NCBI RefSeq assembly: GCF_002150685.1
Contig: NZ_MSSW01000042.1
Location: 62,001-126,000 of the forward strand
Direction of reading: 5' to 3'
Origin: Algoriphagus antarcticus
GTDB lineage: Bacteria > Bacteroidota > Bacteroidia > Cytophagales > Cyclobacteriaceae
DNA: 64,000 bases
Shown here in pieces: positions 55,500 to 64,000 of this stretch. How positions within the stretch are numbered: the stretch's first letter is position 1; each line of letters opens with the position of its first letter. A model generated the notes under the pieces. That model was not told where the DNA came from, did not search any database, and saw nothing but the letters and a program-made list of their open reading frames with translations. The translations under genes were made by a program, and so were the position numbers.

Positions 55500-55695
55500 T
55501 AATTCTCTTCCTAATTGATAGTTCAAGATTAGCTGGATCAAAAAGTCTTTGCAAAAGTATGGGACGAAATGGCTTTATAATGTGACGGATTAAATCTCTC
55601 GCAAAGGCGCTACGGCGCAAAGGAGTTATGAATAAGCGTAAAAGTTTGTTGGAACTCGTCATTGTGAAGCTGAGGTACTAGGCTGACGCAATCTC

Positions 55696-56176
55696 ATTTA
55701 CCAATTACGATTTTTGATTTACGAGATTCCCGAGTAGTTGGGCATCATTGTAAATAGTTGGCACCATTTGAGTTTGTCATTCCCGAGCGAAGGTGAAAGC
55801 AGAGCGCGATTCCCACTGGGACAAGTATGTTTATTAGGAATTGAAAACTATTGTAAAGGAGGCTAGGGGGGATTTTTCAAAGATTCAATAGTTATTTATG
55901 TCCATTGCAAAGCGAGAAATAAAGCTAAAGCAAACTTATTTACCAATTACGATTTTGGATTTATGAAATTTCCGAATAGTAGGTCATCATTATGAATAGT
56001 TGGCACCATTTGAGTTTGTCATTCCCGAGCGAAGGTGAAAGCAGAGCGCGATTACCCCTTGGGACAAGTATGCTTATAAGGAATTGAAAACTATTGCAAA
56101 GGAGGCTAGGGGGGATTTTTCAAAGATTCAATAGTTATTTATGTCCATTGCAAAGCGAGAAATGAAGCTAATCCAA
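55696..56176. repeat. Tandem duplication, two copies of about 242 bp
   Basis: Copy 1 (55696-55937) and copy 2 (55938-56176) start with the same ATTTACCAATTACGATTTT and share, among others, GTTGGCACCATTTGAGTTTG, CCCGAGCGAAGGTGAAAGCA and GGAGGCTAGGGGGGATTTTT. They differ at scattered bases and small indels, so the duplication is not brand new. No ORF crosses it. Confidence 0.9.
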
Positions 56177-58497: not shown

Positions 58498-60876
58498 ATG
58501 GACAAAAAGAGCTTATCCGAAAGAGATGTTTGCACCAAATTGATTAACCCTGCCATCGAAAAAGCAGGCTGGAACATCAAAAAGCAAGTTCGTGAAGAAG
58601 TTTCATTTACAGATGGTAGAGTAATTGTTCAGGGTAGCCTCCATACTAGAGGCACAAAGAAAAGAGCTGACTACATTCTCTACTATAAGAATGACATTCC
58701 TATTGCCATCATAGAAGCAAAGGATAATACAAAGCCAGTTGGTGCAGGAATGCAGCAAGCGCTCGAATATTCTGAAATCCTTCAACTGCCTTTTGTATTC
58801 ACTTCAAACGGAGATTCATTTATATTTCATGATAAGACCAACGACGAAAAAAGAGAGGAAGAAATCAACATGGACTCCTTCCCTTCTCCTGAAGAACTTT
58901 GGTCAAAATACTTAAAGTATAAAGGCCTAGAGGAACCTGAAAAAAGGAAAATCGTCGAGCAGGAATATCATGTGGATGAAAGCGGAATGAGTCCGCGATA
59001 CTACCAAGCAAATGCCGTAAACCGAACTATTGAGGCGATAGCTAATGGCCAAGACCGGATTCTTTTGGTCATGGCAACTGGAACGGGTAAAACCTACACC
59101 GCTTTTAATATCATTTGGAGACTCTGGAAAACAGGAATCAAGAACCGAATTCTGTTTTTAGCGGATAGAAATGCGCTTTTGACCCAAACCAAAAACGGGG
59201 ACTTCTCCCCGTTTGGAAATGATATCATGCATATCATTAAGAATCGGAAGATTGACAAGTCTTATCAAATCTACTTCGCGCTTTATCAGGGCTTAACCAG
59301 TAACGAAGAAGAGAAAAATGCCTACAGGGAATTTAGCAAAGACTTTTTTGATCTGATTGTGGTGGACGAGTGCCATAGAGGATCAGCTTCTGAAGCCTCA
59401 GCCTGGAGAGAGGTATTGGACTATTTCGAAGGAGCTACGCAGATAGGGATGACAGCCACGCCTAAAGAGACCAAGGATGTCTCCAATATGGATTATTATG
59501 GTACGCCTGTTTATACCTATTCGCTGAAGCAAGGAATCATGGATGGCTTTCTAGCCCCATATAAAGTGGTGAGAATTACCACCAACTTAGACGAAGGCTG
59601 GCGACCATCGGCAGGAATGCTGGATAAATACGGAAACGAAATCAAGGATAGAATATACAACCTGAAGGATTACGATCGGAAAATGGTCATTGATCAGCGA
59701 ACTCAATTGGTTGCTGACAAGATCACCCAATTCTTAAAAGCCACTGATCGTTTTGCCAAGACGATTGTCTTTTGCATTGATATCGAGCATGCCAACCGAA
59801 TGAGACAGGCGCTGATCAACGCCAATGCCGATTTAGTTTCTGCACATCCTTATTACGTCGTCAAGATCACCGGAGACGATGAAGTCGGGAAAAGGGAGTT
59901 GGACAATTTCACCGATGTGGAAGAGCGCTTTCCTGTGATCGCCACCACTTCCAAAATGCTCACCACGGGCATTGATACCAAAATGGTGAAGTTGATTGTA
60001 CTGGAAGCTAACATCGCATCCATGACAGAATTCAAGCAAATCGTGGGAAGAGGCACTCGAATTCGGGAAGCTGAAGGAAAGCTGTTTTTTACCATTATGG
60101 ATTTCCGAAAAGCTACGAATCTCTTTGCAGATCCGGATTTTGATGGAGAACCGGTTCAGATCTACGAGCCTGGGATCGACGAGTCCCCTGTTCCGCCTGA
60201 GGAAGAAGTAAATCAAGACTCAATTGCCGAAGAGGTTTCGGAGGAAGATAGAGAACCCTTAAATCCTCCTCCCCCTGATATTAGCATCACCGACGGTGAC
60301 CCCGATTTAGAACCGAGAAAGTACTATGTCAATAATGTTGCAGTAACTGTGATCAATGAACGAATTCAATATTTTGGAGCAGATGGGAAATTAATCACAG
60401 AGTCTCTTAAGGATTACACCCGAAAAAATATCGATAAAAATTTCTCTTCCCTAGATGCATTTATTCTCAAGTGGTCCAAATCAGAAAAGAAAGAAGCACT
60501 ATTGGCAGAGCTTGCAGAGCAAGGGATTTTATTGGAAGCATTGCGGGAGGAAGTTGGGAAAGACATGGATGCCTTTGATTTGATTTGCCATGTTGCATTT
60601 GATCAGCCTCCCCTAACTCGGAAGGAAAGAGCAGAAAATGTTCGTAAGCGGAATTATTTCTCCAAATACAGTGAAAAAGCACAGCAAGTCTTGACCACGC
60701 TTTTGGATAAATACGAGGCGGATGGCATAACGTCTATTGAATCTGGATCCGTGCTGAAAGTGCAACCCTTAAACCAAATGGGCTCTGTCATGGAGTTGGT
60801 TGGAGCTTTTGGAAAGAAAAAAGACTGTGACAGGGCGATGCTGGAGTTGGAAAGAGAAATTTATCAAATTGCTTAA
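58498..60876 (+). CDS. hsdR: Type I restriction endonuclease subunit R
   Basis: Motor and nuclease subunit of a type I restriction-modification system (EcoEI-like). 792 residues: N-terminal PD-(D/E)xK nuclease with Asp58 and E73-A-K75 (KRADYILYY, IAIIEAKDN), helicase domain 1 with Walker A MATGTGKT (192-199) and DECH box VVDECHRG (about 287), motif III MTATPKET, helicase domain 2 (TSKMLTTGIDTKMVKLIVLE, QIVGRGTRIREAEGK), and a C-terminal EcoEI-R-type domain (about 560-792). All catalytic motifs are intact, but the only HsdM in the window is truncated and no HsdS is seen. Confidence 0.93.
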   Translation: MDKKSLSERDVCTKLINPAIEKAGWNIKKQVREEVSFTDGRVIVQGSLHTRGTKKRADYILYYKNDIPIAIIEAKDNTKPVGAGMQQALEYSEILQLPFVFTSNGDSFIFHDKTNDEKREEEINMDSFPSPEELWSKYLKYKGLEEPEKRKIVEQEYHVDESGMSPRYYQANAVNRTIEAIANGQDRILLVMATGTGKTYTAFNIIWRLWKTGIKNRILFLADRNALLTQTKNGDFSPFGNDIMHIIKNRKIDKSYQIYFALYQGLTSNEEEKNAYREFSKDFFDLIVVDECHRGSASEASAWREVLDYFEGATQIGMTATPKETKDVSNMDYYGTPVYTYSLKQGIMDGFLAPYKVVRITTNLDEGWRPSAGMLDKYGNEIKDRIYNLKDYDRKMVIDQRTQLVADKITQFLKATDRFAKTIVFCIDIEHANRMRQALINANADLVSAHPYYVVKITGDDEVGKRELDNFTDVEERFPVIATTSKMLTTGIDTKMVKLIVLEANIASMTEFKQIVGRGTRIREAEGKLFFTIMDFRKATNLFADPDFDGEPVQIYEPGIDESPVPPEEEVNQDSIAEEVSEEDREPLNPPPPDISITDGDPDLEPRKYYVNNVAVTVINERIQYFGADGKLITESLKDYTRKNIDKNFSSLDAFILKWSKSEKKEALLAELAEQGILLEALREEVGKDMDAFDLICHVAFDQPPLTRKERAENVRKRNYFSKYSEKAQQVLTTLLDKYEADGITSIESGSVLKVQPLNQMGSVMELVGAFGKKKDCDRAMLELEREIYQIA

Positions 60877-60877
60877 A

Positions 60878-62323
60878 TTGGATTTAACACAAAAAATAAA
60901 ACTACCCGAAGGAAGGCGACTCGAGTTTAAAGAAGCGTTGCCGGCTAATGCAGACTTTGCCAAAACGGTTATCGCTTTTGCAAATGATGCGGGTGGAGAA
61001 TTGTTTATTGGCATCAAAAACAACCCGAGAGTCATCGTTGGTATTTCCGAAAATCTATTGGATGGTCTGGAAAACAAAATCAGTAACATCATTCACGATT
61101 CATGCGCTTTGGTTATTCAGCCAGAGATTTCATTTCTGACTGAAGCAGGCAAACATGTCATTCGGGTGTACATCCACAAAGGCAGCAAACCGCCCTACTT
61201 TTTAAAAAGTAAAGGCAAAGCTGATGGCGTTTTTATACGCGTGGGCTCATCAAACAGATTGGGCGATAACGAAACGATTCAGCGCTTAGAAAGATTGGCG
61301 GCAAATATTTCGTTTGACGCCGGACTGAATTACTCCAAAGATTTTATTGACCTAAAAAAGGATGAGTTCGCCTCTTTTTTCAAAGAAAAAATAAGTGAGG
61401 AAGTAACGGAGAATGTCCTTGAAAAGCTTGATTTGATCGTTGATGAACAAGGCGAAAAGCGGGTAACGAATGCGCTAATTCTCCTTTCGGAAGACAAACT
61501 GAAAACGCAGCTTTTTCCGAATGCTAAAATTGAATGTGCGCGTTTTAAAGGAACCAAACCTGGCAATTTTATAGATCAAAAATCTTTTGCAGGAAGCATC
61601 ATTGGCCATGCCGAGCTGGCCTTGAACTTTGTGAAACGTCACATTTCTGAAGGAACGAAGAATTATGAAGGCGTTTACAGAAACGACCGCTGGGAATACC
61701 CAATTATCGCATTGCGGGAAGTCATTCGGAATGCAGTCATTCACAGAGATTATTCGCTTACGGGCAAGGATATTAAAATTGCCATTTTTGACGATAAAAT
61801 AGAAATTACCAGTCCTGGTAAATTATTGCCTTCGGTAGATTTTGACGAGATGTTTGCCGGGCAGTCTGATGTGCGCAATAAAGTTTTGGCACCCGTTTTC
61901 AAACGTCTCGGCATTATAGAGCAATGGGGTAATGGCCTGCAACTCATTGCTGATGATCTACAGGAATATCCAGAAATTAAAATGATCTGGAGCGAGCCGG
62001 GCATGGCCTTCCGTGTTTCTTTTATAAATACTATTTATACGGTGCAACAGGAGTTGCAACAGGAGTTACAACAGGAGTTACAACAGATGACGATGTACGG
62101 AAAGGTACTGGTTCAAATAAGTCAACAATTGCTATCCAAGAAACAGATATCCAATGAATTAGGACAAAAAAGCATATCAGGACAATTGAATAAGATAATT
62201 AGCAAACTTGTTGACCATAGCTTAATAGAAAGATCAGAAGATGAGTTAAGTAGTTCCAAACAACGGTACAGAATAACAAATCGAGGCATTGCTTTTTTGC
62301 ACCTACTCAACAATAAAAAATAG
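60878..62323 (+). CDS. AlbA_2/GHKL ATPase with winged-helix tail (restriction-locus accessory protein)
   Basis: 481 residues from the TTG at 60878, one base after the hsdR stop; an earlier TTG at 60800 would overlap hsdR by 77 bp. Domains: AlbA_2 (Schlafen-type) fold with RRLEFKEALP and FANDAGGELFIGIKNN (about 14-120); GHKL-type ATP-binding domain with LREVIRNAVIHRDYSLTGKD and IIEQWGNGLQLI (about 240-390); a linker of 12-nt in-frame repeats encoding QQEL units (62045-62086); and a C-terminal winged helix (SISGQLNKIISKLVDHSLIE, RYRITNRGIAFLHLL). Such proteins frequently sit inside type I restriction loci; their role is unresolved, perhaps a regulator. Confidence 0.85.
   Translation: MDLTQKIKLPEGRRLEFKEALPANADFAKTVIAFANDAGGELFIGIKNNPRVIVGISENLLDGLENKISNIIHDSCALVIQPEISFLTEAGKHVIRVYIHKGSKPPYFLKSKGKADGVFIRVGSSNRLGDNETIQRLERLAANISFDAGLNYSKDFIDLKKDEFASFFKEKISEEVTENVLEKLDLIVDEQGEKRVTNALILLSEDKLKTQLFPNAKIECARFKGTKPGNFIDQKSFAGSIIGHAELALNFVKRHISEGTKNYEGVYRNDRWEYPIIALREVIRNAVIHRDYSLTGKDIKIAIFDDKIEITSPGKLLPSVDFDEMFAGQSDVRNKVLAPVFKRLGIIEQWGNGLQLIADDLQEYPEIKMIWSEPGMAFRVSFINTIYTVQQELQQELQQELQQMTMYGKVLVQISQQLLSKKQISNELGQKSISGQLNKIISKLVDHSLIERSEDELSSSKQRYRITNRGIAFLHLLNNKK
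62045..62086 (+). repeat. 12-nt in-frame repeats in the AlbA_2/GHKL gene
   Basis: Three units of CAACAGGAGTTA/G plus a half unit encode (QQEL)3-QQ between the ATPase and winged-helix domains. Slippage would change linker length by four residues without breaking the frame. Confidence 0.9.
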
Positions 62324-62653
62324 ATGTCCCAAATATCTGCAAACGCAAATTATTTGCAAAGGCAAGAGTCACAGCTAGAGTCACAGCTAGAGTTGGGGTA
62401 CGAGTTGCAGTATCAATCTTTATATTCGAAAATTTTGAATTTTACCGAAATAGAAAACAATAGCACAAAAGGAATCGCAACTTTGCTAAGCCAAAAAAAC
62501 ACTTCTGGTCAATTAAAAATGACCTTAAATAGACTGATGGGGCACAAACTTATCGAATGAACAATCCCTGAAAAGACAAAAAGTAAAAACTAACAACACA
62601 GAATAACAGAAAGAGGTATTGCTTTTTTGCAATTACTCCAAAATAAAAAGTAA
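62324..62653 (+). pseudogene. Duplicated, decayed C-terminal tail module of the AlbA_2/GHKL protein
   Basis: Starts with ATG directly after the stop of the ATPase gene (TAGATG). It encodes a repeat linker (QESQLESQLELG) and a winged helix (TSGQLKMTLNRLMGHKLIE) parallel to the ATPase tail. Two in-frame stops follow (TGA at 62558, TAA at 62591); the frame then continues with HRITERGIAFLQLLQNKK to the stop at 62651-62653, matching RITNRGIAFLHLL of the intact copy. The first 78 codons (62324-62560) are open and could be a peptide. It is a separate tail copy carrying nonsense mutations. Confidence 0.8.
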
Positions 62654-62757
62654 TGTTTTTAAATAAAAATTATACCCCTTGGCTAGAGTCGCAGCTAGAG
62701 TCGCAGCTAGAGTCGCAGCGCGAGTCGCAGCATGAGTTGCGAACACCTTTTACCTAG
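62653..62757 (+). pseudogene. Third tail remnant: small ORF with LESQ repeats
   Basis: The ATG at 62653 overlaps the stop of the second module (TAATG). The 34-residue reading frame consists mostly of four LESQ-type units (12-nt repeat GAGTCGCAGCTA at 62686-62733) and ends in TAG before any winged helix. It is probably the start of a third tail module that has been deleted. The remainder to 62833 shows nothing before hsdM. Confidence 0.6.
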
Positions 62758-62833: not shown

Positions 62834-63325
62834 ATGACTCAAATTACCACCAACATAAAAGGCATCCGCGATATCATGCGGAAAGACACAGGAGTAGACG
62901 GAGATGCACAGCGGATCTCGCAAATGGTGTGGATGCTCTTTATGAAGATCTTTGCCGACAAAGAAGAAGAATGGGAAATCACCATAGACGGCTACGAAAG
63001 CCCGATTCCTGAAAATCTCAAATGGCAAACCTGTGCAGCAGACGAAGAAGGCTTGAAAGGCGATGCCCTGATGGACTTTATCAATAATGAGTTGTTTCCA
63101 GCGTTGAAGGAACTTGATTTCAGTATCAGCCCACAGGCCAAGATTATTCGTGCGGTGTTTGAAGACACTTACAATTACATGAAAAACGGAACGCTCTTCC
63201 GTCAGGTCATCAACCAAATCAATCGCATAGACTTTAACAGCTCGACTGACCGACATTTATTTAACGACCTCTATGAAACCATTCTAAAAGAATTGCAATC
63301 GGCAGGTTCTTCTGGCGAATACTAA
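62834..63325 (+). pseudogene. hsdM: Type I methyltransferase subunit M, truncated after the N-terminal domain
   Basis: 163 codons matching the HsdM N-terminal helical domain (TTNIKGIRDIMRKDTGVDGD, RISQMVWMLFMKIFADKEEE, then ending LYETILKELQSAGSSGEY). Complete HsdM proteins continue from this point as GEYYTPR... into the adenine-methyltransferase domain (with NPPF/Y). Here a TAA follows the GEY codons and the DNA changes to another gene. No SAM-binding motif or catalytic NPP(F/Y) is present, so the remnant cannot methylate DNA. Confidence 0.88.
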
Positions 63326-63326
63326 A

Positions 63327-64000
63327 GGAGACCTTCCTTCCTTGGCCAATGCCAATTTGATCAAACTTGCTCGTGACCCATTCAAATTTAGAAGTTTGGC
63401 AAAAGATTGGGAGCCAAAATTGGAAAAAACCAAAATAGATTTACTTAAGAAAATTGACCGCTTAATCCAATCAGAAAAGTTGAAACTAATCAATTTAGAT
63501 GATTATTTGATGGGAGAAGATGAGGCCAATGAGCTAACTGGATATACCAAACCTAGCATAGAAAAATTAGTCGAAATGATTATTTATTTTGCTCATGCGG
63601 TCCCCAGTTATAAGACAAAAATGAATAAGCTGCTTTTCTACGCTGACTTTTCCAAGTTCCGAGAGTTTGGAAATTCTATCAGCGGAGCCAAATATAAGGC
63701 GATTGATTATGGGCCTGTGCCCAATATGTATGAGACGATTTTTGAGAATTTGGCTGTGAACGACATGATTGATATTTGCTTTGAGTCAAAAGAAAATGGC
63801 AGCAAAATGGAAAAATTAGTAGGTAGAGCAGATCGACAATTTCAAGCGGATTTGTTTTCTGAAGATGACCTTCACACATTGGAGAAAGTAGTGGCAATTT
63901 TCCAACATACTTCGCCAAAGGAAATTGTCAAGATCAGTCACCGAGAAATCGGTTGGCTTGAAAATGAAAATTCCAAACAATTTATTTCGTACGAATATGC
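63327..64000 (+). pseudogene. SocA/Panacea (DUF4065)-type antitoxin, N-terminally truncated
   Basis: From 63327 (a different frame from hsdM) the DNA encodes GDLPSLANANLIKLARDP, which is the end of a helix-turn-helix domain (in complete relatives preceded by a YENG-type phrase), followed by the Panacea/SocA domain: YFAHAVPSYKTKMNKLLFYA, ISGAKYKAIDYGPVPNMYET, and LHTLEKVVAIFQHTSP plus ISHREIGWLENEN near the window end. No start codon precedes the first conserved residues; a TTG or the ATG at 63510 might allow a shortened product. Its toxin would lie beyond the window, if present. The gene is fused head-on to the broken hsdM. Confidence 0.75.

Follow-up and report, generated by a model that had tools for sequence, protein, structure and literature searches.

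The 64-kb stretch of DNA analysed here, which we call the window, holds hsdR, a gene for a 483-residue SLFN_AlbA_2 and HATPase_c_4 protein, two extra partial tails and a truncated hsdM, all on the forward strand. The hsdR ORF (58498..60876) is intact and encodes an EcoAI/FtnUII-type type I restriction subunit R (NCBIfam NF046051, 1171.8 bits; REase_I in PADLOC). The Schlafen-type gene (60872..62323) consists, according to Pfam and AF2, of a SLFN_AlbA_2 and HATPase_c_4 body that runs to about 62020, a 12-nt array and a winged-helix tail (tail 1). Its start codon is provisional, and the listed ORF opens at 60800. Both Pfam matches on this gene were above cut-off (PF04326, 5.7e-21; PF13749, 5.1e-23), and no NCBIfam family matched it. 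The truncated hsdM (62834..63325; HsdM_N, PF12161) encodes the N-terminal 163 residues only, 91% identical to residues 1-165 of HsdM at a related locus (L019). A 397-residue HsdM query against the assembly recovered residues 1-165 only, at this locus, and the four other matches elsewhere in the genome were 27-30% identical. The restriction operon is therefore broken in this assembly. A SocA/Panacea-domain ORF (63342..64000, forward strand; PF13274, 4.3e-20) lies 3' of the truncated hsdM and continues past the window to the equivalent of 64022. Separate from the tail locus, a 242-bp unit is repeated in tandem at 55688-56171 (2.0 copies, 92% matches).

An earlier note on this DNA had reported a second and a third tail copy 3' of the ATPase gene, and we confirmed both in sequence and position. 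The span given there starts inside the intact tail 1, and the extra part is therefore 62324-62757 only. Tail 1 lies within the ATPase ORF and ends at TAG (62321-62323), part of TAGATG. Its array (62045..62086; TRF) has 3.5 copies of CAACAGGAGTTA and encodes QQEL. Tail 2 (62324..62653), delimited by DNA alignment and the tail HMM, reads from ATG at 62324 to TAA at 62651-62653. It is decayed: an array of 2.4 copies of AGAGTCACAGCT (62365-62393) is followed by winged-helix sequence with two nonsense codons, TGA at 62558-62560 and TAA at 62591-62593. Tail 3 (62653..62757) opens at the overlapping TAATG (62651-62655) and closes at TAG (62755-62757). It consists of body-end-like codons (MFLNKNYTPW) and 4.2 copies of the 12-nt GCTAGAGTCGCA (62682-62731; TRF), which encode three LESQ, one RESQ and then HEL, and it has no winged helix. 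Over 85 nt, tail 3 is 70.6% identical in DNA to the linker and array of a homologue (L020). An ATPase query against the whole genome recovered tail 2 at E=2.3e-12, and the tail-type HMM matched both tails here, tail 1 at 2.7e-32 and tail 2 at 2.4e-26. The search for the double 24-nt unit, at up to one mismatch, gave two matches in this genome, both at this locus, and no match in the 295 other genomes covered; a reversed control pattern gave one match, in one other genome. The tail copies are not due to chance.

In the AF2 model of the Schlafen-type protein (22 sequences, mean pLDDT 78.6, pTM 0.63), a winged helix occupies the C terminus beyond the repeat (about residues 408-481), with helices at 408-418, 423-429 and 437-448, strands at 452-454 and 465-468, and a last helix at 470-481. 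Foldseek matched the model to 3lmm (E=4.8e-17, TM-score 0.37), with SLFN12 and SLFN13 among the first ten, to the RecG-related N-terminal domain 2kyy and, more weakly, to MarR/PadR-type winged helices. The domain matches and the model indicate that the gene probably encodes a bacterial Schlafen-type effector or regulator with an AlbA_2 RNase-like domain, a minimal histidine-kinase-type ATPase and a C-terminal winged helix. The part of PMC12839542 available to us describes proteins in which a Schlafen-family RNase is joined to a minimal histidine kinase and a winged helix and which are widespread with BREX; it also cites a preprint on bacterial Schlafens in anti-phage defence. The window gene has the same domain order, AlbA_2 followed by HATPase_c_4 with a winged helix at the C terminus. 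It also keeps similar company, type I restriction in the window and BREX on an Azotobacter plasmid. 'Effector' and 'sensor' are roles that we infer for the parts of the protein, with the winged helix as the presumed sensor or specificity part.

Repeat arrays between body and winged helix

The body model matched 221 ORFs, of which 217 reached the model end. Removal of redundancy left 203, contributed by the PF13749 search (79), body searches (41) and the tail search (83), which makes the sample as a whole tail-enriched. Eighty stretches were hand-picked from the listed tail matches and 60 from the listed PF13749 matches, with diverse genomes preferred; the proportions therefore apply to these samples. 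The ATPase ORF set comprised 109 ORFs, or 106 after identical ends were removed. A tandem repeat follows the body in 124 of the 203 homologues. All 101 arrays of at least three copies have periods of 10 (10 arrays), 11 (17) or 12 nt (74), whereas among 137 control ORFs, 6 reach three or more copies of any period and 20 have any repeat (Fisher 3e-21). TRF matches inside the body numbered 13 over three sets. The tail-blind PF13749 set has an array after the body in only 29 of 79 genes, with periods of 11 (6), 12 (21), 13 (1) and 21 nt (1).

The reading frame distinguishes these periods. The 10- and 11-nt units are read in all three frames, and AAGT is present in 16 of 22 period-11 arrays. Losing one such unit shifts the winged helix out of frame, which the 12-nt unit of the window cannot do. 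Among genes with a recognised tail (nine array genes outside this class were left out), out-of-frame winged helices were found behind 4 of 31 arrays of 10- or 11-nt units and 1 of 82 arrays of 12-nt units (p=0.02). Two loci in one genome, L013 and L018, share 95% DNA identity and differ in the copy number of a 10-nt unit, with 4.5 copies in the former, in frame, and 3.5 in the latter, out of frame. The earlier suggestion of linker-length changes of the EcoR124 kind fits the 12-nt arrays; it does not suit the 10- and 11-nt arrays of the homologues, because there a lost unit shifts the frame.

In arrays of the window tail type, GAG is the majority Glu codon in 23 of 24 (body mean 0.37); in those of the FRxxYLxP type, CAA is the majority Gln codon in 25 of 28 (body mean 0.36). 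The other two of the four comparisons gave no bias, with a CAA majority in 8 of 27 arrays of the window tail type (body 0.38) and a GAG majority in only 3 of 11 arrays of the FRxxYLxP type (body 0.39). Among pairs with body identity below 45%, the repeat unit tracks the winged-helix type (0 of 1000 label shuffles). Winged-helix types and their arrays include LGQKSISG with GAGT, FRxxYLxP with CAAGT and KISRKEA with GAACGATTAC; the unit of tails 2 and 3 is GAGTC(A/G)CAGCTA. The sequence GAGTCRCRGCTA recurs in distant phyla with the same winged-helix type. A GAGTCGCGGCTA array is found in the Schlafen/GHKL/winged-helix gene of the Azotobacter plasmid (L285 2489-3952), between brxC and pglX, in a locus where CTA accounts for 7 of 253 Leu codons, and a GAGTCACGGCTA array is found in a Pseudanabaena restriction locus. 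Both proteins match the tail 2 winged-helix cluster best (E 4e-28 and 3e-27). The double unit is also present in eight IMG/VR contigs (L287-L294), in two sequence groups with GAGTCRCRGCT arrays of two to three copies; no Schlafen body and no winged-helix match was found in these viral contigs.

The arrays could be merely flexible or helical protein linkers that grew by slippage, with no action at the DNA level. AF2 renders the repeat as a helix (residues 389-404, at low confidence), a 12-bp linker repeat has a precedent in EcoR124 HsdS, and the two unbiased codon comparisons are in keeping with a linker. Such an account has difficulty with the 27 of 101 arrays whose 10- or 11-nt units are not multiples of three and occur in all three frames, and with the two biased comparisons. 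It also has difficulty with arrays that stand past the stop of genes without an internal array. A 10-12-nt repeat lies within 400 nt downstream of 34 of 201 genes, compared with 8 of 193 upstream and 5 of 149 behind control genes; the 34 include two-copy matches, near-identical pairs (L211/L212, L225/L229), frameshifted or cut-off own tails (e.g. L039, L128) and the post-stop arrays just mentioned, and are not a count of displaced tails. We therefore consider a role as linker and nothing else somewhat unlikely. Periods, frames, codon bias, unit-tail pairing and, above all, distant recurrence together favour a DNA-level role, and the arrays appear to be more than a protein linker. Three points speak against a cognate binding array: conservation of codons and units may come in part from common descent of the modules, the double unit is present in viral contigs that lack this gene, and the repeat unit of a gene is not enriched upstream of it (best match 0.745 versus 0.742 for foreign units, 95 loci). 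The unit as an upstream operator was accordingly rejected; in a 6.5-kb stretch of the window, no 11/12 or 12/12 unit match lies outside the arrays.

The window locus and its single-tail relatives

Two loci, L011 and L019 (Lunatimonas assembly), have bodies 85-86% identical to that of the window gene, the same order of hsdR, gene and hsdM, and one tail. A third locus, L010, aligns identically to L019 and was counted with it. The DNA alignment with the window is unbroken up to 62079, within array 1, from 59380 with L011 (where the L011 locus starts) and from 58461 with L019. Past 62079, the tail of the relatives aligns to tail 2, and the alignment then continues in hsdM: 62361-62652 of tail 2 corresponds to L011 2705-2996 (69.7% DNA identity) and 62492-62638 to L019 6324-6470 (74%). 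L011 is contiguous at this junction (2702, then 2705), and about 281 nt holding tail 1 are therefore extra in the window. This extra segment (62080..62360), with array 1 at its left edge, contains the winged helix of tail 1, the stop and a short spacer and is absent from L011 and L019. The spacer that closes it begins with ATGTCCCAAATA, which by eye resembles the hsdM start. The edges of the segment fall within or next to repeats and may be off by a few units; the array registers are ambiguous, and the crossover point is inexact. Short stretches of tail 1 (62258-62313 and 62267-62324) match the ends of the relatives' tails at 79%, as expected because tail 1 belongs to the same tail type.

Pairwise scores suggest which tail is the newcomer. 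The L011 and L019 tails share 84% identity with each other and 50-56% with tail 1, which scores 158 and 161 against them, within the range of its scores to eight other tails of the type (149-167). Tail 2 scores 199 and 214 to the same two tails and at most 183 to other tails of the type. Since tail 1 scores no better to the relatives and tail 2 scores best to them, tail 1 most likely came in and tail 2 is most likely the displaced old tail. Tail 2 is only 58% identical to the relatives' tails although the bodies are 85% identical, which could be explained by decay or by a second foreign origin. No counterpart of tail 3 was found in L011 or L019 by DNA alignment, and tail 3 is a remnant of another event. 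Among the loci examined, no donor of tail 1 was found.

Based on these comparisons, we propose that recombination at the 12-nt array that separates body from tail brought in a new tail module, made up of a winged helix with its stop and a little flanking sequence. The body would then read into tail 1, while the resident tail 2 would have been pushed downstream, where it is decaying; tail 3 would be the stub from a further event. The array, whose 10-12-nt units span about one turn of DNA, would be a DNA element matched to its own winged helix, probably an iteron-like array of binding sites. Being matched in this way, array and winged helix would travel as one module, and modules would be joined at the array. 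We regard this explanation as a whole, tail insertion at the array with displacement of the old tail and the array-winged-helix module as candidate DNA element, as likely.

Tail exchange and displacement in homologues

In five groups, tail types differ (normalised tail score under 0.3) between bodies of 84-96% identity: L113 with L158, L148, L150 and others; L132/L144/L175/L177; L131/L147; L133 or L125 with L155; and L022/L028. In the pair analysis, which 167 of the 203 homologues entered and in which pairs with under 200 aligned columns were skipped, tails differ in 8% of 77 pairs at 80-90% body identity and in 16% of 76 pairs above 90%. On a body tree, tail type changes at least 33 times (117 bodies, nine states), compared with a mean of 69 and a minimum of 63 in 100 shuffles; the tree was built from 142 genes in nine tail clusters, reduced to 117 by dropping near-identical bodies with the same tail.

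Displaced tails or arrays are present in three other lineages. A stretch 26-86 nt past the stop of L131 matches the array of L147 (body 94% identical), and the end of the L147 tail follows further on. In L014, a second tail and downstream flank lie about 825 nt further on and match L013 (91% DNA identity). L040 retains a downstream array of another tail type. The tail that is attached in L113 is an orphan in its neighbours L158 (body 96%) and L148 (93%), so that one and the same tail can be joined to a body in one genome and stand alone in the next, whichever way the change went. In partial agreement with the earlier note, modular C-terminal tails are exchanged at the repeat array with older tails left downstream, and such fragments do occur at other AlbA_2/GHKL loci (e.g. 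L131, L014 and the loci of genus g240).

The genus g240 also illustrates another possible origin of a spare tail. Some of its loci carry gene 1, a 5' fragment of hsdM and then a complete second gene (L150, L161, L162); others retain of the second gene only its array, now an orphan, and a broken tail (L110, L158, L159, L148), have a single tail A (L153, L149, L157) or join the body to tail B (L113/L183, one locus). The coexistence of a full second gene with stages that keep only array and broken tail raises the possibility that, in the g240 case (L158 and others), a second gene next door was deleted and no tail was inserted. Applied to the window, a second complete gene of the family would have stood between the Schlafen-type gene and hsdM and lost its body, leaving its tail; the start of tail 2 (MSQISANA) indeed resembles the hsdM start (MTQITTNIK) by eye. 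Yet no body sequence is present at either junction in the window, two precise deletions would be needed, and L011 and L019 have their single tail in the place of tail 2. A former neighbour is therefore an unlikely source of tail 2, and insertion of tail 1 at the array remains our preferred reading.

The layout has also been read as a store of alternative tails, which would be switched regularly by recombination or by frame slippage at the arrays, as in phase variation. The L113 body joined to a tail orphaned in its neighbours, the excess of out-of-frame winged helices behind 10- and 11-nt arrays, and the L013/L018 pair, which differs by one 10-nt unit and in frame, would suit such switching. 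In the window, however, tail 2 has two stops, tail 3 lacks a winged helix and identity between tails 1 and 2 is only 46%; with copies broken and hsdM truncated, the store is not usable there. Copy number switches the frame in a contingency locus, and the 12-nt units of the window cannot shift it. We consider active switching at this locus quite improbable. The interpretation in the earlier note is thus supported for tail exchange with old tails kept but not, in this window, for a usable store; the store idea is valid for evolutionary history and does not extend to a working store in this genome. Duplication of a tail within the gene, followed by divergence and decay, is very improbable: although each of the three modules begins with similar body-end codons followed by a 12-nt array, tails 1 and 2 resemble each other no more than they resemble tails of distant species, the relatives' tail finds its best score with tail 2 and not tail 1, and so old a duplication would have to be lost in both relatives.

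In searches of genome sets with one genome per species, the tail HMM matched 49 of 390 genomes at the order level and 95 of 395 at the phylum level, and 48 of these 95 belong to g240. In f37 genomes of g240 (e.g. G821, G890, G796), at least 15-17 HATPase_c_4 matches per genome were found, with many orphan tails, and some ORFs in these genomes hold two winged helices. Plasmids gave 5 records at E<=1e-20 and 165 at E<=1e-3. Among the matches listed, the Klebsiella/E. coli plasmid versions end near query residue 382, and the one examined (L284) had no array and no winged-helix match. Fourteen phage records had a match, all under 60% identity. The search of viral contigs yielded no close relative; 11 stretches matched the pattern, none of them a relative.

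A candidate array and winged-helix module and known systems

We propose a portable module of an array and its cognate winged helix, with putative binding of one to the other; the array would be a cognate DNA element, module and joining site at once. It is possible, and we suggest this tentatively, that across bacterial Schlafens the sensor is a portable cassette of this kind, in which a 10-12-nt array is coding sequence, cognate site and joining point, and the winged helix recognises that array. The array would tether or autoregulate the effector at its own gene, and cassette swapping, or frame slippage of 10- and 11-nt units, would change the defence trigger. If so, a family of anti-phage effectors related to human Schlafens would renew its sensor through cassette exchange at a DNA array, with a fossil record of earlier sensors left behind the gene. 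Orphan tails could then reveal the history of defence specificity. Array-winged-helix pairs offer a direct and cheap binding assay of sensor recognition, and this reading cautions against treating such arrays as mere protein linkers. Tail exchange, displaced tails and 10-12-nt arrays are not mentioned in the accessible part of PMC12839542, where the term 'tandem repeat' is absent from the main text. We found no description of these arrays or of displaced Schlafen tails in the open-access literature.

The window case is most likely a tail replacement that left the old tail behind, like Rhs orphan tips. In the Rhs system, as far as the available part of PMC3967940 describes it, a displaced C-terminal module likewise lies downstream of an intact main gene and differs from the attached one, and fusion of the main gene to an orphan tip by recombination was seen in passaged cultures. 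Rhs proteins are, however, delivered toxins with immunity genes, whereas the window has a winged-helix tail on a presumably intracellular protein, a short-repeat junction and broken copies. No Rhs/YD-repeat core, toxin tip or immunity gene was found in the five ORFs scanned with Pfam.

The TAEL repeat of EcoR124I/II HsdS is, like array 1, a 12-bp in-frame repeat in a type I restriction gene, and its two or three copies set the gap between the recognition half-sites (PMC3874165, available part). That repeat lies in HsdS between the recognition domains; here, units of 10, 11 and 12 nt lie in an AlbA_2/HATPase_c_4 protein beside a winged helix. RptR resembles our proposal as a restriction-linked regulator that binds three tandem direct repeats. 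It is described in the available part of PMC12255303 as a 9-kDa free-standing repressor with 9-bp repeats, TAGCTA core, in a promoter. In contrast, the repeats studied here belong to the gene of a large protein and lie within its coding region or directly behind it. Five homologues (L199, L211, L222, L225 and L254) have no internal array and carry an 11-nt array directly past the stop, which in L222 reaches 12.3 copies.
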